Assembly (NCBI GenBank): GCA_025201705.1
Contig: MU616640.1
Coordinates: 1 to 64,000, forward strand
DNA: 64,000 bases
DNA from: Dissophora ornata
Lineage: Eukaryota; Mortierellomycota; Mortierellomycetes; Mortierellales; Mortierellaceae
Direction: 5' to 3'
Shown here: one piece after another, positions 3,169 through 46,296 of the stretch
Position numbering within the stretch: the stretch's first letter is position 1
Layout of the letters: each line of letters starts with the position of its first letter
Translations under genes and position numbers: made by a program
The notes under the pieces: model-generated
The model's database searches: none
What the model saw: the letters and a program-made list of their open reading frames with translations, nothing else
What the model was told of the DNA's origin: nothing

Positions 3169-4593
3169 CTATTTACAGTACTTTGGCGTGGCTGATCGTT
3201 CGTATTTGATTTGGCTCCATCGGAACATTTCCAGGTGCTTCATTCCTGCCAGGTTTCGAAGGAATGTCGTCAGGAATAACATGTTCCTCCTCCTCGCCAT
3301 TATATCATGCATCGTACTATGCTGTGGGTGAAGGTACCAGCCCTCTATCGCCATCGGGATCGCCTTGCCATTTTCACCCTCGCCTTCTCCCTTATCCGCA
3401 TAGCCACCCTCACGGTCGCTTTCAGCGTCCAGTAGATGCTCCGGGTCCGGTACGCCCTGATCTGGGTGAAACTCTAGACACAATACCTGCAGTTGAGAAC
3501 ATCCCCATGGTTTGCTCCACAGCCCATTCAAGATTTCTTCACGACTGGCTTTGAAAAGTCCAAAGGCATTGAAGATTTTGAGGTTCCAGCACTGAACCAG
3601 AATCTCCAGCAGGAAATTGATATCCAAGTGTATGAAGTTGCAAGCTTCGAGCTTCAGTTGCGTTAGGGTGGATGCATGGGCATTGATGGCACTAATGATG
3701 CGTCCCCCGAATCCGGCCAGATTTGCCCGAAACTTGACGAGTCCTGAGGTTTGGCAGCTCTGCAATAATTGCTCGTACTCCAGTTCAGTGTAGCTCAAAT
3801 ACTTGAGTGTGAGTGCCCGTACTTTTGGGCAGTGCTTACGGATGTTCTCCGTTAGTCGGGCTAGATCATAGTTTCCTTCCAGGATCACGGAGAGTTTGTA
3901 GAGGTTGGGGCAGCAGACCACAAGGTCTTCGAGTCGTGTGCTCTCAGCGTGGTTAATCCGGTAGGAGAGTTTGAGGAGATGCGGGAGAACCAGTTGCACT
4001 CTTCCTTGCCCCTCGTCGGAGAGGACCATGAAATCTCCAGGCCTGACGCCACAAATCGAGTACAGGCCTAATTTGGTCAACGTCCTAGCAACGGACCGCA
4101 GCACTTCAGCAAGACGTCCCTTCGACCCATCCCACGACAGGAGAGTCATCTCCTTCATTCTCGTGAACTGTGTAAGGCTCTCCACGTCCAGTGGATGTGC
4201 TAGCAATTTTCCATGCCAATAAAGATTCCTCAGCCCGTGGTTCAGCCGGACCAGATCCCACTGGCTCGATACATCGGAGATTCTCAAGTCTACCAGGTTG
4301 GTGCACTGAAAATAGCCTTCTTGATGTGCGAGATGGGCCTTGAAGCTCCGGATCAGGTGGCTATGGCGCCTGATCAGCTCCAAGGGAACTTTGTCGAAAT
4401 AGGCGCCATCGTACACGTACCAGAGAAGAGGAGTAAGTGTCTGATACCAGAACTTGCATACTAGGATACAGGCGTGTATTGTATGGGGTCTGCAGACACG
4501 GGGGCGGTGATCATTCGAGCCCGAGGGGGCGACCCACAGCGGAAGAAAGAATCCGACTCTAGCAAGGATCTCCGGGAGCTCGAGGGCATGCAT
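3169..4593 (-). CDS. F-box / leucine-rich-repeat protein
   Basis: Single-exon gene of 474 residues, ATG at 4593, TAA at 3169-3171. The N-terminus (HALELPEILARVGFFLP, then ACILVCKFWYQTLTPLLW at about residues 41-58) has the pattern of a fungal F-box: a short leucine-rich helix, then a conserved C-x-x-W region. The rest is a series of irregular leucine-rich segments (for example LVDLRIS, LTKLGLYSICG, LYKLSVILEG, LKIFNAFGLF) typical of F-box/LRR substrate receptors of SCF ubiquitin ligases. Binding to Skp1 and substrate recognition are known for the family; the target is unknown. An acidic glycine/glutamate-rich loop lies near the C-terminus (around residues 395-412). A purine-rich repeat sits just upstream of the start. 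Large F-box/LRR families are common in Mortierella-type genomes. Confidence 0.85.
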   Translation of the reverse strand: MHALELPEILARVGFFLPLWVAPSGSNDHRPRVCRPHTIHACILVCKFWYQTLTPLLWYVYDGAYFDKVPLELIRRHSHLIRSFKAHLAHQEGYFQCTNLVDLRISDVSSQWDLVRLNHGLRNLYWHGKLLAHPLDVESLTQFTRMKEMTLLSWDGSKGRLAEVLRSVARTLTKLGLYSICGVRPGDFMVLSDEGQGRVQLVLPHLLKLSYRINHAESTRLEDLVVCCPNLYKLSVILEGNYDLARLTENIRKHCPKVRALTLKYLSYTELEYEQLLQSCQTSGLVKFRANLAGFGGRIISAINAHASTLTQLKLEACNFIHLDINFLLEILVQCWNLKIFNAFGLFKASREEILNGLWSKPWGCSQLQVLCLEFHPDQGVPDPEHLLDAESDREGGYADKGEGEGENGKAIPMAIEGWYLHPQHSTMHDIMARRRNMLFLTTFLRNLAGMKHLEMFRWSQIKYERSATPKYCK

Positions 4594-5079
4594 TGGTTTC
4601 TACAAGGGCTGAGAAGAGAGGAGAGAGAGGAGAGAGAGGAGTGAGAGAAAGAGAAAGAGAGAGAGAGAGAGAGGCAAATTTTAAATTTACTTCACTCACC
4701 CTGGTAGAAGATTCCGTGGAAATAAGAGCCTGTGCATCGACCAGATCGATTCATCGGTCACATCCCCCACTTCCGGCAATGCGCGAGCAGTATTTTGTTT
4801 AGTTCTCTGTCCAAGAGAGCCGTTTATTCTTTTTTTTTACTTTGTCTTGATAATTCACGCTTCCACGTCAGGGAAAGAACGTGGAGTGATAAAAATACAA
4901 TGTCCAGATTAAAAAAGAGTTCAATGATTGATAAATAAAACTACAAAAAAGCAACGATGCGTGTGAAAAGTGTTGTATGCGTTCCTGAAACGAAATGAGA
5001 CAATAGGAAAAAAAAAATAACGATTGAGAGGTATCCTCATCACCGCTGCTATGGCGAACTATGTTCCATGTTCGTTTCT
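4594..5079. other. Intergenic between F-box start and RRM-gene stop
   Basis: Contains a purine simple repeat and T-rich DNA around 4830-4840. No gene is seen. It must hold the F-box promoter and the 3' end of the RRM gene (a TTTATT, read AATAAA on the minus strand, lies near 4823). Confidence 0.5.
4611..4673. repeat. (GA)n purine repeat
   Basis: Imperfect GA/GAGAGG repeat immediately upstream (on the minus strand) of the F-box start codon. It reads as CT-rich in the mRNA leader or promoter of that gene. Confidence 0.9.
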
Positions 5080-8471: not shown

Positions 8472-8583
8472 GCCTTGGAGTAGCAGGAGATATATCATCA
8501 CTTGTTTTTAGTCTCTGTTTTAGCCAGCATACACTTGTAAAATAGATTATTTATCAAATCAAAGTTATAGGGTTATGTTCCTC

Positions 8584-8589
8584 AATAAA
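8584..8589 (+). terminator. Poly(A) signal AATAAA of SelO
   Basis: Canonical hexamer 113 nt after the SelO stop. It lies at the edge of the decayed gene fragment on the other strand. Confidence 0.45.
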
Positions 8590-9010
8590 TGATCCGCGGT
8601 TGACTTCAACCGCTCCCACAGTTGCTTCATCATCGACACTCGATAGTTTTCTCGACAATGATCGATGCACACCCATTTTAGAAGTCCCTCAGTTGTAACG
8701 ACCCGATACAGGTTGCTGAAAATCCGCCCTTTATCGGCCACGTTCTAGTAGGACTCCAATTGCCTCAGATTAGCCCCTTCCAGCACCTCCAGCCTCTCCA
8801 AGCTAATTTCATCCGCAGGCAACTCGATCTTTGTCGTCGATGCTATTTCGTTGGTTCTTGATAGAGCTGGTGGTCTGGTTGATAATATTCCGACGGTGTG
8901 TGTTTCGAGACATCCAGAGTTTTCCTCATAGAATCGATTCCTTCCACAAGTTTGAAGTGCGCCAGCTGCGATCCTGGATGACGGCCAAGCGGTTCAGTGC
9001 CTTTTTGTTG
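8590..9010 (-). pseudogene. Decayed fragment of the tandem LRR-like family (39104-46296)
   Basis: Read on the minus strand, 8590-8800 translates as ERLEVLEGANLRQLESY, an in-frame TAG, then NVADKGRIFSNLYRVVTTEG and LKWVCIDHCRENYR. This aligns directly with DRMEVLKGADLRRLESY...NLYRIATAEG...KWVCNDHYRENYR of the intact gene at 39104-42488. The fragment also keeps the nucleotide stretch gaatcgattccttccaca (about 8931), matching the intact gene near 41335-41355. It covers the middle of the family only: the Cys/His cluster upstream and the LRR part downstream are missing. The stop codon and lost frame continuity make it a relic. It lies 30 kb from the living copies. Confidence 0.85.
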
Positions 9011-9592
9011 CATCTCAAGCATTTGAGCTTGCCAAATGCTTCCCGGAAATCACATCGAGTACCACTTCTGCAATGATATATGATCCTTAGCGGGACAACG
9101 CTACAAGTGTGCTCAATGAAAATGTGGATATATGGTCAATCAATCTCATCTCATCTTTTTTCTATCACAACACAAAGAGGATTACCTCTTGCACTATTGA
9201 CTCGATATGTATTCCTCTTTACTCTCTATTCTTTCGGTCTTTCTTTACAGCTTACTATTTAAAGTTTTCGTTTAGTCGGGAACAAAACGGTGTCTTTGCT
9301 GTTCATGATGACCTTTGCGTTCTCATAAACTTGCAGGATATCTTGCCAAAAAAGAACTGCGGGTTGACATGTCTTACTATCCAGTTGTGAAGGGATGTCG
9401 ATGGCGATGCTAGTTGAATGGGCATGGATAGTCTATGATTGCTATTCATTGTCTTGGCTAGTAGTATGTACCATGGTTACTGTGGTGAAGAGAGGCTGGA
9501 CTGAAGGGCCTTTTGTTGAAGCAGGGATGGTCGGGAAAGTCGGTTGAGGACAAAGGGTGATACACTCATGATTACCAATGGCGATGCAGCAT

Positions 9593-24134: not shown

Positions 24135-27100
24135 CTATGGCTCAATGTGTTCTTCAAACTTCAGGCCGCCCACATGATCGAGTCGCTTCCTGCATGACTC
24201 AACCGCCTCCTTGAATCTTCCGGCGAGTCCTGTATCGCAGAACTGGAGGCCGTCTAGAGTTTGTAACCAGGATTCCGCTTCCTTGACGGCTTTGGAGGCC
24301 CACATCTCTGCTTCACGATCGTCCTTGGTGACAGCAACCCCTTCCAAATACGCGTCTGATAGCAAAGGGTACGCCGGGACATATCCTTGCGCGGCAGCAT
24401 GGAGATACCAGTTGACAGCTTCCGATGGGTCTTTGACTACACCCTGACCTTCACTGAACATATGGCCGATTCCAAGATTAGCCTCTGCTATGCCAGCATC
24501 GCTTGCCTCGCGAAACCATTTCATGGCCATGGCATAGTCCTGTTCCCCGCCATTGCCTTCGACATACATACGACCGATGTTATACTTGGCAATTTCTGAT
24601 CCACCATCACTTGCCTTCAGATACCATTCCATGGCTTTAGTATAGTCCTGCTCTGGCCCGAGACCATCATGGTACATTTTGCCGATGTAAAACATGGCGT
24701 CTGAATCTCCGGCGTCGCTCGCCCTGAGAAACCACTCCATAGCCTTGCTGTGGTTCTTCTCCACGCCGAAACCATCGTGATACATGTTGCCGATGTAAAG
24801 CATGGCTTCTGAATCTCCAGCGTCGCTTGCCTTGAGAAACCACTTCATAGCCTCGCCATAGTCCTGTTCCACGCCGAGACCATCGTGGTACATGTGGCCG
24901 ATAAGGAACTCGGCGTAAGAATCTCCAGCATCGCTGGCCCTGAGAAACCACTCCATAGCCTTAGTGTAGTCCTCTTCGACGCCCTGGCCATCATGGTACA
25001 TGTGACCGATGTGGAGCTTGGCATCTGAAACTCCGGCGTCGCTGGCCTTGAGAAACCACTCCATAGCCTTGGTGTAGTCTTTTTCAATGCCGTGGCCACG
25101 GTAGTACATGTCGCCGATGTTGAATTTAGCATCGGAATCTCCAGCATCACTGGCCTTGAGAAACCACTCCATGGCTGTGCTATAGTCCTGTTCGATGCCC
25201 TCACCACGGCAGTACATTCGGCCGATCACGAACATAGCATAAGAATCTCCAGCATCACTCGCCTTGATAAACCACTCCATTGCCTCGACAAGGTCCTGTT
25301 CCACGCCGTGGCCATTAAAGTAAATGGTGCCGATACTTGCCATAGCATCCGCCAAACCACTGTCACTTGCCTCCAGATACCACTTCATTGCCTCGACATA
25401 GTCCTGTTCCACGCCATGACCGTCGCGGTACATACAACCGATTACGAGCTTGGCATTTGAAACTCCAGCGTCACTGGCCTTGAGAAGCCACTCCATAGCC
25501 TTCCCATGGTCCTCTTCGACGCCGTGACCATCATGGTACATATTGCCAATATGTAACTTGGCGTTTGAGTCTCCAGCATCGCTTGCTTTGAGAAACCACT
25601 CCATAGCCTTGGTATAGTCTTGTTCAATGCCGTCACCACGGCAGTACATATCGCCGATGTTGAATTTAGCATCGGAATCTCCAGCGTCGCTGGCCTTGAG
25701 AAACCACTCCATGGCTGTGCCATAGTCCTGTTCAACGCCCTCGCCATTGCGGTACATCCTGCCGACCACGAACGTGGCATACAGATCTCCAGCCTCACTC
25801 GCCTTGGTAAACCACTCCATTGCCTCGACAAGGTCCTGTTCCACGCCGTGGCCATTAAAATAAGTGGTACCGATGTTTGACATGGCATCCGCCGAACCAC
25901 TGTCACTTGCCTTCAGATACCACTCCATAGCCTTGGTGTGGTCCTGTTCAACGCCATGACCATCGCGGTACATGTGGCCGATGTAAAGCTTCGCATTTGA
26001 AATCCCAGCATCACTGGCCTTGAGAAACCACTCCATTGCCTTTCCGTAGTCCTTCTCAACGCCGCAGCCATTAACATACTGAACGCCAATGTTGAATTTG
26101 GCGTTTGAGTCTCCAGCGTCGTTTGCTTTAAGATACCACTCCATAGCCTTGGTGTAATCCTGCTCAATGCCTTGGCCATGACAATACATATCGCCGATGT
26201 TGAATTTCGAGTCGGAGTCTCCAGCGTCGCTTGCCTTGATAAACCATTCCAAAGCTTTGATGTAGTCCTGCTCCACGCCGTGACCATCGCGGAACATTTC
26301 ACCAATATAGCGCTTGGCATTTACCTCTCCAGCATCGCTTGCCTTGAGAAACCACTCCATAGCTTTCGCATAGTCCTTTTTCACTCCGTTTCCACTGAAG
26401 TACAGGCTTCCTATGTCGCTGCGTACATTCGGATGTTTTTTCCTGGCTGCTTTTTGAAGAAACTGTAGATCCTCATCCTGCTCGTCCCCTTGCATCTGTG
26501 GATCATCGATATCATGATCTTGCGATGTGTTCTCAACATCCGGAAGTATTCCCGCCGCGGCTGGTCTTTCTTCAGGTTCTTTATGCCAGCACCCACGGAT
26601 ACATGCTGCATACGCCTCGGGAGTGTCGTCTGGGATATCCTCCGTGTATCCATTTATAATGCAATAGGACATGCTGTCCAGCGTATGCTCTTGGTATGGT
26701 TGTGTGCACCCGGAAGCCATCTCCCACATTACCATTCCCAGCGCATAAACATCGGACTTGCATGAATATTGTGGCGGATCTAATAGCAGCTCCGGCGCCA
26801 TCCATGGAAGCGTACCACTCCCGCCACTCTGCCCAACCGTACGTGCTTGTCCAAAGTCACATATCTTGGCCTCCTCATGCTTGGTAAGAAGAATATTGGC
26901 ACTCTTGATGTCGCAGTGGATGATGTTTTGGCCGTGAAGATATGCCAATCCCAACGAAACTTGCTTGGCGATCCGTGTCTTGGTCTCAATATTCTCGATG
27001 GAGCCCCTCAATATGGCGCTTGACAGGCTTCCACCTTCTACGTACTCCATTACAAGCATGTCTTGTTCCACATGGTAGAACTGGACAATGTGCCTGTTAT

Positions 27101-27254
27101 GCACTCGCTTGATGACTTCCACCTCTCGTTTCGAGTCCTCGTGGCTTAAATCAAGAAATCTCTTGACGACCACATCATCGAGCCCGAACTTGGCCTTGAA
27201 GACTTCTGCTTGGCCACCATGACCAATTTTTTCTCCCAGCTTGATATTCTCCAT
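24135..27254 (-). CDS. Protein kinase with about 20 Sel1 repeats
   Basis: Single-exon gene, 1,039 residues from the ATG at 27254 (MENIKLGEKIG); the frame is open for a little further upstream but without an ATG. A tyrosine-kinase-like/Ser-Thr kinase domain covers about residues 1-240: glycine loop GHGGQAEV, Lys31 in VVVKRF, catalytic loop HCDIKSANILL (Asp115; Cys replaces the usual Arg of HRD), CDFG (Asp133) and WMAPELL. After an acidic linker come about 20 tandem 36-residue Sel1-like repeats (about 276-995; consensus A-x-x-x-I-G-x-M-Y-x-x-G-x-G-V-E-x-D-Y-x-K-A-M-E-W-F-L-K-A-S-D-A-G) and a short C-terminal cap. Sel1 solenoids bind proteins; kinase-Sel1 fusions are expanded in Glomeromycotina and relatives, where roles in signalling are proposed. 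Its partner is unknown. A second kinase-Sel1 gene lies 359 bp upstream. Confidence 0.92.
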   Translation of the reverse strand: MENIKLGEKIGHGGQAEVFKAKFGLDDVVVKRFLDLSHEDSKREVEVIKRVHNRHIVQFYHVEQDMLVMEYVEGGSLSSAILRGSIENIETKTRIAKQVSLGLAYLHGQNIIHCDIKSANILLTKHEEAKICDFGQARTVGQSGGSGTLPWMAPELLLDPPQYSCKSDVYALGMVMWEMASGCTQPYQEHTLDSMSYCIINGYTEDIPDDTPEAYAACIRGCWHKEPEERPAAAGILPDVENTSQDHDIDDPQMQGDEQDEDLQFLQKAARKKHPNVRSDIGSLYFSGNGVKKDYAKAMEWFLKASDAGEVNAKRYIGEMFRDGHGVEQDYIKALEWFIKASDAGDSDSKFNIGDMYCHGQGIEQDYTKAMEWYLKANDAGDSNAKFNIGVQYVNGCGVEKDYGKAMEWFLKASDAGISNAKLYIGHMYRDGHGVEQDHTKAMEWYLKASDSGSADAMSNIGTTYFNGHGVEQDLVEAMEWFTKASEAGDLYATFVVGRMYRNGEGVEQDYGTAMEWFLKASDAGDSDAKFNIGDMYCRGDGIEQDYTKAMEWFLKASDAGDSNAKLHIGNMYHDGHGVEEDHGKAMEWLLKASDAGVSNAKLVIGCMYRDGHGVEQDYVEAMKWYLEASDSGLADAMASIGTIYFNGHGVEQDLVEAMEWFIKASDAGDSYAMFVIGRMYCRGEGIEQDYSTAMEWFLKASDAGDSDAKFNIGDMYYRGHGIEKDYTKAMEWFLKASDAGVSDAKLHIGHMYHDGQGVEEDYTKAMEWFLRASDAGDSYAEFLIGHMYHDGLGVEQDYGEAMKWFLKASDAGDSEAMLYIGNMYHDGFGVEKNHSKAMEWFLRASDAGDSDAMFYIGKMYHDGLGPEQDYTKAMEWYLKASDGGSEIAKYNIGRMYVEGNGGEQDYAMAMKWFREASDAGIAEANLGIGHMFSEGQGVVKDPSEAVNWYLHAAAQGYVPAYPLLSDAYLEGVAVTKDDREAEMWASKAVKEAESWLQTLDGLQFCDTGLAGRFKEAVESCRKRLDHVGGLKFEEHIEP
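24918..25997 (-). repeat. Tandem duplication of a 540 bp, five-repeat Sel1 block
   Basis: Inside the kinase-Sel1 gene, repeats 5-9 (25997-25458) and 10-14 (25457-24918) match one-to-one in order, far better than neighbouring repeats match each other. By hand count 148 of 180 residues agree. Each block has the same signature order: RDGHGVEQD, then FNGHGVEQDLVEAMEWF, then RMY..GEG, then FNIGDMY, then HIG.MYHDG. It is an in-frame internal duplication. Confidence 0.9.
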
Positions 27255-27612
27255 CCTGTGAATTGCCTCTGGCCGTAAGGACAAAGTTGAAATGGCCTAC
27301 TAGATAGAACCAAGAGGCGCCACTGGCGCATGATATATATGTTAAAGATGTTCCGCCCTAGTAAGAACATCCCACTGAAGAGGTAGATCTCGAGTCATGT
27401 ATCAAACATACCTTGTGTGTGAGGAAAGTGTTTGTAGAAGAGTAGGAGATGTTGTGTGAAGAGAGGCTTATACCCTGGATGACCTTCTATTTATCTGCAG
27501 CAACAAGCAAAATGCTCAAAGACGAAATGCTCATGGGCGTAGTTGTCAAGTGACTTTGGCGAGGTAAAAACAATACCGCATTGTTGTACAAGTGACTTTG
27601 GCGTCAGGTTTA
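27255..27612. other. Spacer between the two kinase-Sel1 genes
   Basis: Contains a 15 bp perfect direct repeat, caagtgactttggcg, at 27547-27561 and 27589-27603, close to the 3' end of the upstream kinase gene. No other feature is seen. Confidence 0.6.
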
Positions 27613-29244
27613 TTACAAGACTAACGCTTGACCAAGGAGTCCCAAGATATATTGTGCATGTTCATCCCCTTGTTCCGCCGCTTTTTTCAGCCACATGCGA
27701 CCACGCGAAGGGTTTTTGCGGACACCATTCCCATTGATGTACTGGATACCAATGTTGCACTGCGCATTCATGTGTCCCTTCTTAGCTGCTTCTTGCCACC
27801 AATTCATAGCCTCGAGATCATCCTGGGGAACACCCTGGCCTTCCGCATACATGTTACCCAGATGGTACTGTGCCTCTGCTTGTCCTTGAGCAGCAGCCAT
27901 TTTCATGAGCCTTGCGGATTCCTCATAATCTTGTTCCACGCCTACGCCATTGCTATACAATACCCCAATGTTAAACTGCGCTACCGCACATCCTTGTTCA
28001 GCAGCCTCACGATACCATCGTATGGCCAATTCGTTGCTTTGCGCGACGCCGAGTCCATGCAAGTACATCCCTCCCAGGTTAGAGCACGCGTAGCTATTTC
28101 CTTGATTTGCTGCCGCTTGGAATAGATCTACAGCTCTGCAGTAATCTTGTAGCACACCCTTTCCTCCGTCTCGATATAATGCGCCAAGCTCCCTCTGCGC
28201 TGATGCGTATCCTTGGCCAGCAGCCTTCTGGAACCATTCTGCAGCTTTCGTGTAATCGCGAAGGACGCCACTTCCATCTCGGTAAATCATACCCAGGCCA
28301 TACTGGGCTCCCGCGTGTCCCATGCTAGCAGCCCTCCTAAGTCTTTCTGCGGCCTCGGCGTGATTGACGTCGACTCCACGTCCGAAGTAGAACCCGAGTC
28401 CAAGCTTAAGCTCCTCGTTGGCCGAAGAACCCTGCTCTGCGTTGTTGACCTGACCGCCCCCAACAACCGTGTCGTGAACCTGATGAACAACGTGAAGGGC
28501 ACTCACAATCTCCTCTACAGTTGGCCTCTTCTCGGGATCCTCGTCAAGACATCTTTCCATGATGGCCGTGTAATCCAGCGGTATATCATCCCCATGCGCT
28601 AATTCTTGCATTACGACACCGAGCGCAAAGATGTCCGACATGGCAGAATACTTGGGTCTGGCTCTCTTCAATTCTGGTGCCATCCATCTCGGAGTTCCTT
28701 TTTGCATATAGGTTGAGGCACAGGTGGCCGAGGACATGACTTTGGCTAGCCCAAAATCGCACAACTTGGCCTCGTCGTGCTTCGTCAACAAGATGTTGGC
28801 TCCCTTAATGTCTCTGTGGATGATACCTTGGCTATGCAGGTAGCCTAATCCGAGAGCCACCTCCACCACGATTCTCTTCCTGTTTTCCCAGTCAAATCTT
28901 GGCTTGGCTGCACTGAGACTGCCGCCTTCAGCATAGTCCGTGATGATATACACGTAATTAGCATCATGGTCAACGCCGTAGCATTGGATGATGTGCTTAT
29001 GCGCAAGCTGGGAAACAATATTCGTCTCCCTCACGATGTCTGTGGCGCTCCCGTCGGTCACCCGGATCCTCTTCACGGCCAATTGAATACCATCCTTGTT
29101 CCAAAGATACACTTCACCAAACGCTCCTTTCCCAATCAGCGTCTCAGAGGTAGGGAGCGGAATTTCGCCAAATCCCCCCCATGAATCCGAAAAACTGTTA
29201 GTTTGAACCTCGGACATGGCTACAGGCTGGTATAATCCTTCCAT
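27613..29244 (-). CDS. Protein kinase with about 7 Sel1 repeats
   Basis: Single-exon gene, 543 residues, ATG at 29244. The kinase domain (about 35-250) is more canonical than its neighbour's: GKGAFGEV, Lys58 in LAVKRI, HRDIKGANILL (Asp145), CDFGLAKV (Asp163) and WMAPELK. It is followed by about seven Sel1 repeats (about 290-540), with typical units such as YGLGMIYRDGSGVLRDYTKA and YHLGNMYAEGQGVPQDDLEA; one repeat carries a one-residue insertion (YRDGGKGV). It ends shortly after the last repeat. Same strand and same architecture as the 1,039-residue gene just downstream, but sequence divergence is large, so the pair is an old tandem duplication or two independently kept family members. The kinase is intact by motif. 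Substrate and upstream signal are not visible. Confidence 0.92.
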   Translation of the reverse strand: MEGLYQPVAMSEVQTNSFSDSWGGFGEIPLPTSETLIGKGAFGEVYLWNKDGIQLAVKRIRVTDGSATDIVRETNIVSQLAHKHIIQCYGVDHDANYVYIITDYAEGGSLSAAKPRFDWENRKRIVVEVALGLGYLHSQGIIHRDIKGANILLTKHDEAKLCDFGLAKVMSSATCASTYMQKGTPRWMAPELKRARPKYSAMSDIFALGVVMQELAHGDDIPLDYTAIMERCLDEDPEKRPTVEEIVSALHVVHQVHDTVVGGGQVNNAEQGSSANEELKLGLGFYFGRGVDVNHAEAAERLRRAASMGHAGAQYGLGMIYRDGSGVLRDYTKAAEWFQKAAGQGYASAQRELGALYRDGGKGVLQDYCRAVDLFQAAANQGNSYACSNLGGMYLHGLGVAQSNELAIRWYREAAEQGCAVAQFNIGVLYSNGVGVEQDYEESARLMKMAAAQGQAEAQYHLGNMYAEGQGVPQDDLEAMNWWQEAAKKGHMNAQCNIGIQYINGNGVRKNPSRGRMWLKKAAEQGDEHAQYILGLLGQALVL

Positions 29245-30490
29245 GAGGCAGGATGGGATCGTTTGTAAAAAGGCTGTTTAGAAGGACGTTTGTGCAGGTC
29301 GTGACGGGAACTGCAGAAAGCAAGGAAAACGGCAAAGCGGAATACACTTACTGGCGGGGATTCAGCGCGCGGTTTGGAGAGGCGTTCGAGGTACCAGAAA
29401 TATAGTGTGCAAAACTAGCAGATACATGCAATGCACAGTTCGTGTTAGGATGTATCGTTCCAGAGTTTGACTATTTCCACCCATTCAGCGACATACTAGG
29501 TGCAAAACTACGCGTGAGTGAGTGCGAGTGCGAGTGTGTGAGTGTGAGTGTGAGTGTGTGTTTGCGGGTTTGCAAGGGCAACAAAGGCAAAAAGACGAGA
29601 GAACAACTCTGAAAACATGGCGTAAAACACGATTGCGAAGCACCTGTACACCCATTAGATACAAACAAGACGCCGCTTTCATCTGGTCATAACACAGAGC
29701 CCATGTCAACCGCTGGGGGTGTAGCTTCGCCATTGTTTTGGAAGACAGAGAAAAGATTAGTTTTCTTTTTTCACACCACTCCCTCCAAACACACACCCTG
29801 CCACGAATTAGGTTGAAGTCCGGAATGGAGATGCGAAATGGTTTAATTGAGTTGCAGGAATGAAGTGAGGACCGGCGCGTGCTAATACTGATATTCTGGA
29901 GGTCAATTCTCAGGCGACGCCATGAGCAACATTCCGAAGCCGGCAATACTGTCTCGGAGACGGACTTCTAGAATCTATCTATTAGGCATAGTCGTGGTCG
30001 AGGTCCTGGGAGCAATTAGGCGCCGACTATAGTTTCCTTGCCAGAGGCCGCATTCTAGCCACCGTGGCCATCTGGAGCGACGTGTTGTGCATTGTCACGA
30101 CGAAAACAGCGATGGTATCTGTCGTTGCAATTTGAATTTGAATGTCTTCACAGCGCCGTGGTGTGGTTTAAAAGATTGAAATCAATGACTTTGCAACTAT
30201 TCATTGATACTCTGTGCCCCCATGTATGGAAATTGAGAAGAGTAACTATTCTCCGAGGCTCTTCTCTTTCTAATCGACTCTGTACACACAGACACACTGC
30301 TCTGTCGTTTAAGTTACCTTGCGACACTTTCTTGGGAGGATTAATAATTCGATTCAGGAGTTGATCGTGGTGCTGATATGACCCGTTCTCTTTTATTACG
30401 CTTGTGAATTTGAGGTGTAAATAAAAACGTAGAAGACTTATTTTACTCTTTTCAAGATAGTCTTGTCACCATTCTGCCATACATTATATA
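29245..30490. other. Gene-poor spacer of 1.25 kb
   Basis: Contains the promoter of the 543-residue kinase and a GT/GA-rich simple repeat (29513-29561). Open frames here lack recognisable domains and were not called. Confidence 0.5.
29513..29561. repeat. (GTGA/GTGC)n simple repeat
   Basis: Imperfect gtgagtgcgagtgtgtgagtg array, purely low-complexity. Confidence 0.85.
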
Positions 30491-39103: not shown

Positions 39104-42100
39104 TTATATTTCACGCGCTACATTTAGTCCGTCGATCTCAACCAGCGGCGCCTTCCGTCTCAGGTCCACATAAAGCTCCCGGAACTCGTAAGTGGGATCA
39201 CACTTGGCCAATTCTGTATCCTTGAGACCTAAAAACCTCAGCTGGACCATCGAGTCGTAACCCTCAGGCAAAAGTTTGACAAAGATCTTAAGTTGTTCCA
39301 TCGAAAAGTTTGTGTCCTTAAAATCCAATATCTCCAGCTCAAAAAAATCAAACGATCTGATCACCGTCTGCCAACGTTCTGGGGTAAGGCGGTAACCCTG
39401 GAGTGAAAACTCCTTTATGGCCACCAGCATATCAGCAAGCTCGAGTTTCGATCCAGAGGACGGCTCAGGCTGTGAGTGCTGCGCTGAGATCAAGTCATTG
39501 ATTGGTGATGCGCAATCCTGTGGAAGTTTTGACATGTCCGGGTCCACAAGTCCGCACGTATCCAGATGTAGTTTTTTGTGTCCGCACAGACGAAGGATTG
39601 CAATCTCGAGTAGGTGTGAACTGGCCTCAGTGCCTTCTAGAAGCAATGTAGCCGCGCTTTCTCTTTGCTGACTTAGAAGTCGCCGTGGAGACGTCCTCAG
39701 ACCTGCATCGCGTAGCCGCCTATGCAAAGTAAGACCTAGCCGCTCTAGCCCTTTTGATCGATGTATGACTCGCGCCATACCATCAGCTCCAGTCCATGTC
39801 AGTGAGGCAAGGTTTACCGTCAACGAAGTCAGCCTGGAGCCCTCATTCTCGGTCGTACTGTCCAGCAACGCAGCAAGATTGTCGTCAAACATCTCATTTG
39901 TGGTCAGTTTTACTATAGACCAGCCATACATGTCGAATATGGATGACAAAATACTCGCATCCGCAGACCAGGTATTTCCCATTGTGAGTTCGGTGGATGC
40001 AGCGAAACCAATCTTAGTGGCATCAGGGAAGTCAAGGGTCATTCTAAGGGCGTCCTTGTTTGTAGTATCGCCATCCGCGTTTTCTTCATCCTCGGCTAGT
40101 TCCACCTTGCGCAGTGCACAGGAGCGTCGAGTAATTAAAGCGTCCGATCTTTCTGATTGTATTATGTCAATCAACACAAGAGCTTGTTCAAGACGACATC
40201 CAATCCGGAGCTCGGAAAGTTGGGTGCTGCGACGTAAGACGTCTCTCAACTGCTTCATTTCTACATCGTCCAGAGTCTTCTTCACATGTAGTCGGTGGAC
40301 ATGGTGCTCCTTGAGGAACAGGCCATCCGTGGAGAAATCCTTCAGCTGGGTGATAGTTATAGTCACATCCTGAATCTTTCCTTGAGAGGCATTGATGGTC
40401 ATTATTTGATTATTGATCTCCAGGGCGATATTTTCAAGGTTCTTGAATTGATCGATTTTGTCCACAATGAGATTGGAAGCGAAATTTAGGTCACTAGAGG
40501 TCAGCTTCAGTTCCGTCAAGGATAAACAAGAGTCGAGAATTTTTTTGACGACGAGCTGGGTGTCCTGTTCAGGCCGCGACATGGTAGTATCGATCTGTAG
40601 AACCCGGAGTTGAGGGCATGTGAAAATCTGACCAATGCTGATGTGTCCAAAAAAATTCTTGAAGCGTTTCAGTTGCAAAGATTGAATACGCATATTTCCC
40701 ATAAGTTGCAAGATTGGATCAAAGCGGCGACGGCGGTTGATTATATCGAGCGCTGGTCCCTTGAACGCTTCCCCATTGAGGGTCAGATTGATAATGTTGG
40801 CTTTTGTAACTGCGCTCGAGAATACCCGTAGATCGTTCAGAGTCACATCCCATTGTAGGGCAATGTCGAGCTCCTGTATCCCGCGCGCTTTGACCATCGC
40901 ATCATATAACTGCCTCGCCAGATTCCTAGTCCCGACATTGACTTCGACCTTGCCCGTTTCCTCAATAAACGTCCCGCCATTGACCCTCACCACATCTTTC
41001 AGCTGCATCATCGAAGACTGCCGGTAGTTCTCCCGATAGTGATCGTTGCAGACCCATTTGACATTACCCTCGGCAGTAGCGATCCTGTAGAGGTTGCCAA
41101 GTACTCGGTCGTTGTCTTGGACACGGAGGTACGACTCCAATCGTCTCAAGTCGGCTCCTTTCAAGACTTCCATTCTGTCTAAGGCCACCGCTCTGTCTAA
41201 GTCAACTGGCTCTGTGGGCAAGTCGACCCGGCCACTGGGGTTGCTCATTTGGCCCTGGATAAAGGTGATTGAGCTATCCACAAGACTTGCGAAATCATGC
41301 CTTACGATATCTGGTTTTTCGCGCACAGCTTCGATTCCTTCCACGACCTTGAAGTGCGCCAATGATGGTATAACGATCCCTCTGGTCATGTACCCGTATT
41401 TGACCATCTCCATCATTATTAATGCGTACGGCCCGTACTTCTGGAAGAACTCGTCAGGCTTGTTGATATCGTATCCATCGTGCTTAGCCAAATGAATTTC
41501 ATGCGGAGCCCTACTTCCTTCTGCCATTGTATGTGAACCACATTCGCACAAGAAGTATAGCCGGAACTCCTTCGAGAGCGGCTTGTCAAGAGTCTCTCGA
41601 ATTCGCTTTGCTTTCGGAAGAACGACGAACAATCGAGGTATCGGATACTCGTGGAGTTCATAGTTCTGGGTGATGGTTGACTCGATACGATTTTGAACGA
41701 TGGCCAGGCGTTCGAGGGTCTGCGTTTGCAGCCTAAGCATCTCATCCATCATCTTCCGGTGCTCTTCCTGAAGTGTCCTGTTCTTCTCCAACAAAGCAAG
41801 AGTAGACTCAAACCCCAGGTGGAGGGCATTTCTGATGCTCTCAGATTGTGCCTGAACCTCAGAATTGAGGGGCAGACTGTTTGGGTTACTGAGGGACACT
41901 CGAGTGTCATCAGAGCAGATAACCAAACTCTTGTCCGTGCTATTGGCATCGTCTATTTGTTCGACTAGAGGCGATGGTATAGCCACATTTTCCTCCCAAA
42001 CTGTCGCTTTCAAGTCGATGTCTGTCGCAATGGTTGTGGGTGATGTTGGACAGGGATCTGGATCCTTCGTAAGCACCTTCGAAACATCGTTGTTGAGCTC

Positions 42101-42488
42101 GACAGAGTCACCAATGATAACTTCAAGGACGAGTCCTGGATGGTATGCAATTCTGAGAGGGACAAGTCTACAAACAGACAGGTTGATAGACATTTAGTTA
42201 AAGCCTCCAGAAAGAAGATGATACCATGAGTATTTGCTTCGGAACTTACTCTTGAAAATCGTCGTCAACCATGAACACGACAACATCTGAACCGCTCATG
42301 ATGCATCTAGGCTTGTTAAATGCCATTTGGATATCTTTCCACAGAACGACATTTTCTCCTGTCTTGCTATCCAGCCGGGCAGGAATGTAGACGGTCCCAG
42401 TTGACGTGGCAGCTCGAAAAGCTTGCAACGCAGGGGACGATGCGACGTAGGGTGGCTTTTCCAACTCGGGGAACCTTTTCGTGATCAT
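39104..42488 (-). CDS. Large coiled-coil/Cys-His/LRR-like protein, tandem copy 1
   Basis: Two exons (42488-42250, 42167-39104) give 1,100 residues. I do not recognise the family. It can be read as four parts: an N-terminal globular segment (about 1-105: TVYIPARLDSKTGENVVLWKD and VFMVDDDFQELVPLRIAYHPG, like a beta-rich fold); a Ser/Thr linker; a coiled coil at about 195-245 (heptad-rich LLEKNRTLQEEHRKM); and a conserved core from RLFVVLPK through FRLYFLCECGSH (Cys287, Cys289, His292) and HEIHLAKHDGY (His302, His305, His309). The C-terminal 600 residues form irregular leucine-rich units (for example LTELKLTSSDLN, LRVLQIDTTMS) ending near LEILDFKDTNFSMEQLK. Single copy-2 paralogue and a decayed relative are also in this window. 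It may be a recognition/receptor protein, but its role is unknown. Confidence 0.8.
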
Positions 42489-42880
42489 GTCTCAGTAGAC
42501 AGCTGGCTTGTGTGGTGGCGTGGGAGTAGCGATTTGGCTGATGTGAGGCTGAGACTATCAGATGCCGGATCTTATGGATGGCGTCCGCGATGAGTGATGG
42601 GGAAGATGATGAATGGAAGCAGAGCCACAGGGCGAGGGCAAAAGTATGCCTTGGGTCATGGTCTGCTTGTGCCACACAAACTTGTTTGATTCTTCGCTGC
42701 GCCCCAGACATGGCTCTGTCAATGCTTGGCCCTCTATCGTGCGGCACTCGCAATGACAGCGAATGTAAATGATGGATGATAGGAAGTCTTTGGACTATGT
42801 CGACCATGCATGTCTTTTCTTGCGCGATACGATATTTAGTTTATTGGTATACGGCATGCAAGCAAAAGCTTCCCTTGGCT
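42489..42880. other. Short spacer between the tandem paralogues
   Basis: 392 bp separating the stop of copy 2 and the start of copy 1, so it holds the copy 1 promoter and copy 2 3' UTR. No distinct element is seen. Confidence 0.5.
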
Positions 42881-45800
42881 CTACAGCTTCAGGCCCTCAA
42901 TCTTAGTACGCGGCGTCTTCTCTCGGAACCAAACATACGCTTCTTTCATTGCACGGGGCTCACAGCATTTGTCGAGGTCTGTGTTGAACAAACTTACAAC
43001 CTTCAATGGGACCGCAGAGGTGTTGGGCTCTGGTATGCGCTTGATCAGCAGTTGCAGCTGCTCCAGTGAAAAGTTCGTGTCATCAAGACTCAATGTTTCC
43101 AACGCAGAGAGATCGATCGCTTCTATTACAGCGCTCCATCCTTGCGGCGAGAGTCGGAGAAAATGTAGTTGAATCTCTTGTAGGGACCTCCAGGCCTGTG
43201 GAAGTTCGAGTATCGATTCGAATGCAGGTAAAATAGGCGATAGAACAGGAGGGCTAGAGACCATTGCCGCGATCCATTGAGCGCGATCCAGCGAAAGCTC
43301 TTGATTGTCTTGCCAGACATCTTGGCTATCAGAACAAACAAGTTTGAATGTATCCAGGTTCCGCACGTCGCTCCTGCAAGAGCAGGCCGCTTCAATCTCG
43401 GGTATCCATGAATCAGCTGTGGAACCTTCAAGAAGCAACGAGCTTATTATTCCCTTATGCGGATCTAGAATTCGCGCTGCGGCCATCCGCCGATCTTCGT
43501 CGTGCAGCTTTTGCAAAGTAAAACCCAGTCGCTCCAGTCCCTTCGAGCGACCAATGACTCGCACCATGCATTCAAGTCCAGTCGGCGTCAGCGAGGAAGG
43601 GATTAACATCAACGAGGTCAGTTTGGAGCCCTTGTCCTCTGTCTTACTGTCCAGCAATGCAGCAAGATGGTCGCTGAACGCCTGGTTCGCGGCCAGCTTC
43701 TCGATGGACCATGCATATTTCTCGAATATTCCTGAGAGTGGGCTGGATTCGTCCACGGGCGCGGTATCTCTCATCTCAAGATGAATGTTTACTCCGAAAT
43801 CATTATTGCCAAGGTTAGGAAAGTCGATGGTCACGTTGAGCACGTCCTTGCTTGCTGTGTCACCGATCGGATGCTCCTCGTCATTCGCTAGATCCACCTT
43901 GCGCAGTTCAGACTTTCGATATTTTGCTAAAACATCCAATCTCGTAGATGTTATGAAATCGATCAGCACAAGTGCTCGCTCAGGGCGACATCCAATTCGG
44001 ACTTCAAAGAGCTCCATTTTGTTGTGTAAAATGTCTCTCAGCTGCTTCTCTTCTGCCCTGTCTGGTGTCCTATCCACATGTAGCTGGTGAATGTTGTATT
44101 TCTTGAGGAATGGGTCATCTGGAGAGAGATCCTTAAGTCGAATAGCCCTTATTGTCACGGCGATAAGTTTTCCTTTGGAGAAATCCATGGTCAAGCGTCG
44201 CTCATCATAGTCTATTGTCATAGCCTGAAGCCTTTGTAGGCCCTCCAGCTTTTCCATCAGATCGTCGAGAATAGGAGTCCAATGACTGGACTTCAAATCC
44301 AGCGTAATCAGAGACTCAAAACAATCGAAGATGCTTTTGACAATATATCGCGTGGCCTTTTCCTTAGAAGGAAGCATGGACTCGATTGTAAGGTATCGAA
44401 TATTGGGAGCCGTGTCCAAAGCAGAGTCACTTGTACGAGGGTAGAATTTCACGAAGTTCCTGAGATGCAGAGATTGGATCCGCCCGTTCGATGTCATCTG
44501 AAAAATTGGATCAAATCGCTTCCCACCGTTCAAAAAATCGGATATGGGTCCTTTGAAGCAGGCTCCATCAATTGTCAAACAAACTATATTCGCATCCCTA
44601 ACTCCCATGGCTAGCTTCTTCAGATGCTTCCGTGTAACATCCCAGGCCAAGGCAATATCCAGCTCTTGTATGCAATTCGCCTTTATCACTGCCTTGTAGA
44701 ATAACTTGGCCTGGCCCTTGGAAGCAATGGTGATCACAACCTTGCCTCTCTCCTCATCAAAGGTGCCCTTTTCCCGGACAAATTCTCGCAAGTCCTGCAA
44801 GTCTGATTCTCGACGGCTTCCCCCAAGCTGGTGGTCTTTGCACACCCACCGAACATGCCCCTTCTTGGTGGTTATCTTACGGAGGTTACCAAAGACCTTG
44901 TCTTTATCATACGTCGCCAGATAGGCTTCAAGCTTTCTGAGGTCGGGGCCGGTCCAACCTTCCACTTCGTCCAAATTAGTGTGTCGTGAAACTTTGTCGA
45001 TTCCGCCAGTGGTGTCACCACCGTTCTTCTCAATAAACGTCATTGTTGCATCCACCATGCCAGCGAAGCTGCCCCATGACTTGTCGAGATATTTTTCTAC
45101 CTTTTCAAACCCGCCCAGAACTCCTGACTGACTCAGAGCTGGTAAGAAGAAACCAGCGACGCAAACCCCATATTTGATCATCTGCAGCATTCGTAATGTA
45201 CGGGCACCATGCTTTTCAAAGAAGTCGTTCGGTTTCTGGAGTTCATATCCTTCGTGCTTCGCGAAATGTATCGAGTGCTTAGGACCGCCCTCAGTCTGGG
45301 TATGCTCACCGCACTCGCATAGAAAATACAAACGAAAGCTGTCGGAACACAGCCTACCAACCACGTCTCTGGAGCCCGTTGCTTTCGGCAGAACGATGAA
45401 GAGTCGCGGGGTAGTGTATTCGTGAAGCTCAAAATTCTGTGTCAGGACAGCTTCAATCCCGCTCTTGATATCCGCGAGCTTCTTCAACATCTGGGCTTGC
45501 ACGTCGTTGACTTTTTCCAGTAGCACTCTGTTTTCCTTCGCGAGCTCAATAACCACTAGTAATAGTACCGTGACGCGCGTGAAGCCAGTATGCACGTCGT
45601 CTTTGATCATGTTCGCTTGCTGAAGTACTTGTCGAAGGAGAGCTGTTTGGTCATTTGGGTGGTCACTATCAGCAACCGTTTGCGATATGTTTGTGGAGAT
45701 GGTACCATTTCTGGACAAGGTTGAAGTAGCGATAGTAGTCATGTTGGCGACACTGGCATTAGGCAGATTGTCCATCCTGGCAATCAAGGTCTGCAAAAGT

Positions 45801-46296
45801 TGCTGATGGTCATTGACAGGAAGAGTATGTAACGAGCTCTGAACGTCATTGATGAGTAGTTGTATATCCTGAGTAACCATCAGATCGTGGCTGAGACCCC
45901 TGTTTTCCAGAGATAACGTAGTTGTATCAGAAGAGACTACAGCGGCAGCGGCAGAGGTCGTGGTTCGAGTGTTATTCCCGGTGGGAGCTTGAATGAAATC
46001 CTCGGGCTTATGGGGGGCCTCCCTGTAATATTTTGGAACGTCAGTTAGCTTCGAATCCATGTTTTTCATCTAAGGGCGGAAAGCTGCATCTCGACTAACA
46101 AAGATAACGAGAGGACATACTTTTGAAGAGTTCCATTGCCCGTAGCGGCCTCTTCGCGCCTTTTTCGGTAAACATCTTTGTGGATGTACTGAACTTGACT
46201 CCTGATAACAATGTGTTCGCCAGCGACGAGTTCAGGGCATGAGTTTGTCCGAGATGCCAACGAACTGCGTTGCATGTCGCTGGCATTGGCCATCAT
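42881..46296 (-). CDS. Large coiled-coil/Cys-His/LRR-like protein, tandem copy 2
   Basis: Two exons (46296-46121, 46022-42881) give 1,105 residues. It is a diverged paralogue of the 1,100-residue protein, same strand and 392 bp away. The conserved core repeats: RLFIVLPK, FRLYFLCECGEH (Cys294, Cys296, His299) and HSIHFAKHEGYE (His308, His311, His315), with the same two cysteines and four histidines. The C-termini also align (LSPQGWSAVIEAIDLSALE versus LTPERWQTVIRSFDFFELE; LSLDDTNFSLEQLQLL versus LDFKDTNFSMEQLKIF). The N-terminal exon differs from copy 1 and is less clear, but a helical segment again precedes the core (about 205-250, LLLVVIELAKENRVLLEKV). The whole gene is LRR-like after residue 400. 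The function is unknown. Confidence 0.8.

Follow-up and report, generated by a model that had tools for sequence, protein, structure and literature searches.

Two tandem genes of Dissophora ornata (Mortierellaceae) belong to a large family of modular, receptor-like LRR proteins built around a Cys/His core domain that has no described family in the libraries used. The pair lies in a stretch of 64,000 nucleotides (the window) on one contig (C79) of a genome assembled as 31.4 Mb in 968 contigs. Sequences and structure models together establish the architecture of these proteins, its conservation, its amplification, the faster divergence of the LRR half and the presence of multiple kinds of header. 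The best explanation of these observations, to which we give a probability of about one half, is a lineage-amplified family of intracellular receptor-like proteins that are free of an NB domain and combine a Cys/His core with a ribonuclease-inhibitor (RI)-type LRR.

Gene models and layout of the pair

Both coding frames are open on the minus strand, that of copy 1 at 39104-42193 (1029 codons) and that of copy 2 at 42881-46069 (1062 codons). The addition of a short first exon, with splice sites GTAAGT...TAG and the frame kept, gives copy 1 two exons and 1,100 residues, and copy 2 corresponds to the database protein P0013 (BGZ58_004712, D. ornata; two exons, 1,104 residues) at a match of 99.8-100%. 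An earlier note, made from the letters of the window, had described two intact proteins of about 1,100 residues and one relic, and these models agree with it. Its position for the Cys/His motif of copy 1 (residues 287-309) is exact once exon 1 is spliced on; the motif that it reported in copy 2 is present, from residue 293 of P0013, the start that it had chosen (46296) lying one Met upstream. The relic was located about 30 kb from the intact pair. The features of the locus are as follows.

42250..42488 (-), exon 1 of copy 1, coding for the greater part of the N-terminal domain (about 85 residues; QAFR...VLWKDIQ...DDDFQ); from tblastn with the N-terminus of relatives and splice sites
42249-42168 (-), copy 1 intron, GTAAGT...TAG
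39104..42167 (-), exon 2 of copy 1, coding for the end of the N-domain (PLRIxYHPG) and, after a linker, for the helix, the core and the LRR half up to the stop; from the open frame and splice model
41648..41860 (-), copy 1 coiled-coil-like helix preceding the core; from alignment with copy 2, the core model and the helices of relative P0010
40982..41665 (-), copy 1 core (Cys/His) domain; from the core profile and structure model
41480..41548 (-), copy 1 motif CxCxxH...HxxHxxxH, residues 287-309; from sequence and family alignment
41366..41458 (-), copy 1 hydrophobic helix region 3' of the motif; from model helix 97-122 and hydropathy
41039..41050 (-), the C453-x2-H456 pair of copy 1, conserved in addition to the motif; from the family alignment
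39107..40906 (-), copy 1 LRR half
46120..46293 (-), exon 1 of copy 2, its end being approximate owing to a split codon; from the match of P0013 residues 1-58
42881..46024 (-), copy 2 exon 2, start approximate, without the PLRIxYHPG motif; from P0013 residues 58-1104 at 99.8% and the frame
45254..45319 (-), copy 2 Cys/His motif; from sequence and alignment with copy 1
44831..44842 (-), copy 2 C-x2-H pair; from alignment
42884..44692 (-), copy 2 LRR half; from alignment with copy 1 and P0010
about 8560..9402 (-), relic third copy: pieces of N-domain and core with stops inside; from tblastn pieces 9402-9274 and 9100-8566

The two copies look like the product of a tandem duplication, since 42% of 925 aligned positions are identical between them and they group together in a tree of 111 sequences (support 0.967). 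Their parts follow the order N-terminal header, linker, long helix, Cys/His core and LRR half. The header of copy 1 spans the junction of its two exons, with exon 1 coding for most of it; it is a domain of about 85 residues that ends in PLRIxYHPGVVLEVV. A profile recognized this N-domain in 226 of the 357 proteins of our comparison set (355 database relatives and the two window frames), many of the others being fragments, and in the relative P0010 it was modeled with a pLDDT of 84-96 (blocks of residues 11-90). Neither its alignment (Pfam, E<=1) nor exon 1 of copy 1 (Pfam, E<=10) matched a Pfam family, and the domain had no convincing PDB match. In P0013, that is in copy 2, the profile did not recognize it and the PLRI motif is absent. 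The linker, modeled at low confidence in P0010, is probably disordered. The coiled coil that the earlier note had placed before the core appears in structure models as a long, coiled-coil-like helix, whose final stretch enters the core model as helix 2-33; long helices are also present in the model of P0010.

Family size and the core domain

Within its own genome, copy 2 found 48 matches as a whole protein and 103 matches with its 139-residue core in 31 Mb, the latter amounting to 98 places once matches less than 2 kb apart on the same strand were merged by eye. At least three core places lie on each of the contigs C11, C12, C13, C82, C118, C184 and C608. Three overlapping searches recovered 502, 628 and 332 database proteins (E<=0.001), and the best 120 of each were examined, giving 355 distinct rows among the matches listed; the local amplification first suggested by three copies in the window extends to the 103 core matches of the genome and to hundreds of database proteins. 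All listed rows with an organism name came from genera of the Mortierellaceae except P0312, from Basidiobolus ranarum, a taxonomic range that is a lower bound set by the best 120 of 502, 628 and 332. P0312 matched at E 2.4e-80, is 36-40% identical to the proteins of its eight best BLAST hits among those fetched, and retains the N-domain, helix and core. It lies on a contig of 5.8 kb and may be a contaminant; its distance from its relatives argues against a recent contamination. Two core matches above 40 bits were found in 17 of 237 proteins, in 12 because the matches are distinct copies, of which one is partial, and in the other 5 because a single core had been split in two.

Frames of at least 2,500 residues in the D. 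ornata genome (one of 5,842) are probably not genuine, a run of N in locus L005 reading as open frame. Viral and prokaryotic sources were rejected: two degenerate patterns picked out 30 stretches in viral contigs and 33 in GTDB contigs, among which there were 0 relatives, and the core model matched no viral fold (BFVD) at E<=0.001.

To assess conservation, the 357 proteins were aligned along the core (394 rows), and each position was counted without its gaps; residues are numbered as in copy 1. Within the motif, C287 is kept in 357/361 rows, C289 in 358/360, H292 in 346/360 (96%), H305 in 366/367 and H309 in 365/367, and H302 is the weakest (301/365 rows, 82%). A second pair, C453-x2-H456, starts 144 residues after H309 and is equally constant (C453 in 339/340 rows, H456 in 337/339), so that C287, C289, H305, H309, C453 and H456 are each found in 98.9-99.7% of rows. 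These six and H292 are all kept in 298 of the 312 rows where the positions are present, and 11 of the 14 exceptions lose H292 alone. The earlier proposal of six conserved Cys/His residues within about 23 therefore stands for the CxC, H292, H305 and H309, and is corrected in two respects: H302 is poorly kept, and the distant CxxH pair had been missed. A loose six-residue regular expression matched 272 of 357 proteins vs 0 of 7,140 shuffled sequences, an excess that reflects conservation and not independent recurrence, because the relatives were collected by homology. Per-residue conservation over the aligned rows suggests CxC, HxxxH and the distant CxxH as the likely ligand set, a putative site by which the core is probably stabilized with metal.

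The structure model of the core (281 residues, 93 sequences) has a pLDDT of 81 and a pTM of 0.72, with residues 128-142 falling below a pLDDT of 50. In it the CxC closes one strand and H305 lies in the next, while C453 closes a late strand and H456 is near the start of the following helix. The core profile matched 357/357 proteins, all of them collected via the core or the whole protein. Among 25 core members, no Pfam family was matched by more than one at E<=1; the best PDB profile match had an E of 0.02, and Foldseek found no PDB fold at E<=0.001, a level at which weaker fold matches leave room for a known zinc domain. In one listing of 120 rows, four (P0010, P0036, P0105 and P0112) carry a precomputed PF27087, a family entry that is also present on many LRR_6 rows of another listing; it is unlikely to model the core in general, since it is not listed for P0319, whose core is complete. 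A literature search (bioRxiv and most subscription papers outside its scope) found no paper on PF27087 or on such a family. The core may resemble the C-terminal parts of animal Roco/MFHAS1-type proteins. It is a real, conserved and amplified domain, undescribed in the libraries searched. The claim that the family is unrecognized holds for the core, which at these thresholds has no Pfam, PDB-sequence or PDB-fold match, and fails for the LRR half, which matches a known fold.

Just 3' of the motif, the core carries a hydrophobic region that corresponds to helix 97-122 of its model and may be either buried or membrane-acting. If it were a membrane-acting output, the core would be an executioner and not a scaffold. 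This is consistent with its hydropathy over the best 19 residues, which across 341 proteins (16 of the 357 being dropped for want of an anchor or sufficient length) has a median of 1.69, reaches at least 1.6 in 233 and is at or near the maximum of the whole protein in 299. The values in the window copies are, however, just 1.22 (copy 1) and 1.51 (copy 2), and the helix contains K, Q and Y and may simply be buried, its first part being a confident helix of the domain model. We regard such a role as quite improbable.

Divergence of the LRR half

The LRR half was modeled in P0010, with which the window copies align across that half. The model is an RI-type alpha/beta horseshoe of repeated LxxLxL units, so that the LRR-like half reported after the core is supported and a C-terminal repeat arm, as in NLRs, is present. 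Its matches include NLRP2/7/14/9/3, NLRC4 and ribonuclease inhibitor, the closest being NLRPs and NLRC4, and extend to oocyte NLRP lattices, SKP2, TIR1 and CARMIL; those to ribonuclease inhibitor and oocyte NLRPs are as good as those to immune NLRs. In some members (P0105, P0112 and P0156) a clear LRR_6 array replaces the divergent LRR.

This is the labile half of the protein. Over 276 pairs from 24 genes of the D. ornata genome, the core had a median identity of 0.59 and the LRR one of 0.30, and the core was the more identical of the two in 5911 of 5916 pairs among 111 proteins. The seven closest pairs within the genome (LRR dS <0.35), six of which lie among the same four genes and are not independent, had an LRR dN/dS of 0.45-0.72 and a core dN/dS of 0.16-0.52. 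None of the 25 closest pairs had an LRR-half dN/dS above 1. Change was not in excess on the concave face (exposed strand mean 0.334 vs exposed helix 0.301; 11/20 independent pairs, p=0.29), and positive selection on a binding face thus lacks support overall. For the pair L021/L035, a core dS of 0.35 and an LRR dS of 0.88 suggest that copies have exchanged or converted the core. D. ornata entries formed 15 maximal single-label clades in the tree, the largest with nine of the 30 entries, which include database duplicates of some loci and are not gene counts.

A family of this size might also persist through biased duplication or genetic hitchhiking, mostly decaying and with no common function. 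The relic in the window fits such a course, as do stops inside 6 of the 48 whole-protein and 6 of the 103 core matches. Against it, 97 of the 103 core matches are stop-free, none of the seven closest pairs reaches a core dN/dS of 1, and the core is conserved as far as Basidiobolus; we consider wholesale decay very improbable.

Headers, known systems and possible function

Judged from its sequence contexts, the core occurs behind more than one kind of header. In P0319 (Mortierella sp. AM989) a Crinkler header (PF20147, residues 4-106, E 7e-21) is followed by the helix and core. PF20147 matches at 47 places in the D. ornata genome, and at C69:60069-60379 two consecutive pieces of one such header lie some 320 bases ahead of a core (C69:60699), where an 807-residue frame holds the core and, by eye, LRR_6-like repeats; the splice between header and core at this locus (L069) is a putative join. 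A third arrangement, ARM_5, NACHT, core and LRR within one gene model, is found in P0209 (M. alpina), the only one of the 355 listed rows with a precomputed NACHT, many rows having no precomputed domains. This fusion may be a merged gene model, as rows with SMC2 or RhoGEF look to be, and none of the 82 NACHT matches in the D. ornata genome has a same-strand core within 5 kb.

Neither header turned up in the window copies themselves. At E<=10, Pfam recognized no NB domain (NACHT/NB-ARC), death-fold or enzymatic domain, no F-box and no PF20147 in them, exon 1 of copy 1 included; the only match was LRR_4 in the copy 1 frame (E 8.6, below the cut-off), with nothing in exon 1, the copy 2 frame or P0013. 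We rejected a canonical NLR and an F-box protein for these copies, the NB domain that defines the one and the F-box of the other not being found. Animal NLRs of the NLRP/NLRC4 type, and ribonuclease inhibitor, share with the family only the C-terminal RI-type LRR horseshoe (in P0010); where those NLRs have NACHT/NB-ARC, PYD or CARD, none was recognized in the window copies, which have the Cys/His core instead. Fungal NLRs, with NACHT or NB-ARC joined to ANK, TPR or WD, resemble it as large, variable families and through the NACHT-core-LRR model of P0209. According to one paper, Crinkler is among their N-terminal domains, a header they have in common with some members here, and ANK, TPR or WD stand where LRRs would (PMC9815663), unlike in the window copies, which have an LRR half and no recognized NB domain. 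LRRs are given as missing from fungal NLRs in a second (PMC5658179), and a rare NACHT form paired with LRRs in animals pairs with HEAT in fungi according to a third (PMC12258605).

Crinkler-like proteins exported as effectors against other organisms, with the core and LRR as the delivered part, would account for the true Crinkler header before the core in two members (P0319 and C69), and PMC5289972 describes CRN headers as ubiquitin-like N-termini joined to variable C-termini. However, the N-terminus of the window copies differs, 226 of 357 proteins carry the other N-domain, and no CR C-terminal domain was recognized. A phmmer search with the P0319 header matched P0319 alone among the 357 proteins, of which many are incomplete and have no N-terminus; the usual N-domain has no profile similarity to the Crinkler header (not listed at E<=1; hhalign probability 0.4, E 0.17), a header that, as cited above, also occurs in fungal NLRs. 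We judge an effector role improbable. Since the defining domains of both were not found in the window copies, we class the family as neither NLR nor Crinkler.

An LRR adaptor family, F-box-like or scaffolding, would use the LRR to pick substrates for turnover or signaling and the core to dock a ligase or kinase, with no immune role. Pfam at E<=10 showed no F-box and no other ligase domain in the two window proteins or in exon 1 of copy 1, and copy numbers and LRR divergence of this order are unusual for adaptors with fixed substrates; we think adaptors unlikely.

For the receptor-like reading that we prefer, we infer an intracellular location, oligomerization, metal binding, ligand recognition and some output. 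The fast-changing LRR arm would bind a protein of foreign or non-self origin, copies would come together through the long helix, the invariant core, probably held by metal, would serve as a common switch, and the header would couple that core to a response. Copy number, the invariant Cys/His set, the NLR-like LRR, its faster divergence and the variety of headers support a receptor. It is weakened by the lack of a recognized NB, death-fold or enzymatic domain, of a concave-face excess and of an LRR dN/dS above 1, and because LRRs of this type also work outside immunity in many ways (ribonuclease inhibitor, oocyte NLRP lattices, SKP2, TIR1 and CARMIL). An immune or non-self role is our hypothesis for the family. 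Its fullest form is an NB-domain-free LRR system of immunity or allorecognition in the Mortierellaceae, with about 100 loci here, no direct homologue, and a new metal-stabilized, header-swapping core with a membrane-active helix; this we offer tentatively, as a doubtful proposal.

Were it true, this system of about 100 loci would be a fungal counterpart to the LRR receptors of plants and animals. An LRR arm of NLR type joined to a Cys/His core is an arrangement generally held to be missing from fungi, and fungal NLRs are stated to lack LRRs in PMC9815663 and PMC5658179. With its size and its undescribed, invariant core, the family would be a strong candidate for non-self recognition in early-diverging soil fungi, some of which harbor bacterial endosymbionts.

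Neighboring genes in the window

Two adjacent genes, each ordered kinase and then Sel1, lie about 10 kb from the tandem core-LRR pair, and their Sel1 units are markedly similar to one another by eye; elsewhere in the window is an open frame judged by eye to resemble a fungal F-box/LRR-type protein, for which a Pfam search returned zero matches at E<=0.001.

3169-4599, minus strand: 476-residue stop-to-stop frame, F-box/LRR-like by eye
24135-27296, minus strand: protein kinase with Sel1 repeats, 19 scored Sel1 stretches
27613-29277, minus strand: protein kinase with Sel1 repeats, 6 scored Sel1 stretches

NACHT domains and fused gene models

The D. ornata genome, which carries the core-LRR family, also has a large NACHT repertoire (82 matches in a genome-wide search); at locus L008 (contig C30), NACHT is adjoined by a weak ARM-like match. 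Among database relatives, a single Mortierella alpina gene model (P0209, BGZ68_007479) reads ARM_5-NACHT-core-LRR, possibly representing either a fungal NLR bearing an LRR or a merged model. Annotated proteins P0170, P0190, and P0177, in which the core or core-LRR is fused with RhoGEF, SMC2, or response-regulator domains, are likely merged gene models.

Headers and divergence within the family

One D. ornata locus has pieces of a Crinkler-type header, a second header type in the core-LRR family; the pieces immediately precede the core-LRR frame.

C69:59900-62900 (locus L069): Crinkler-type header pieces, then core-LRR frame

At locus L005 (contig C23), a long run of N, either a gap or withheld sequence, breaks the LRR array downstream of the core and can lengthen apparent open frames in the own-genome core search. 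In three protein pairs (P0069/P0077, P0057/P0059, and P0067/P0092), identity is 96-97% in the core but only 72-84% in the LRR, a gap that could reflect gene conversion of the core or rapid change of the LRR.
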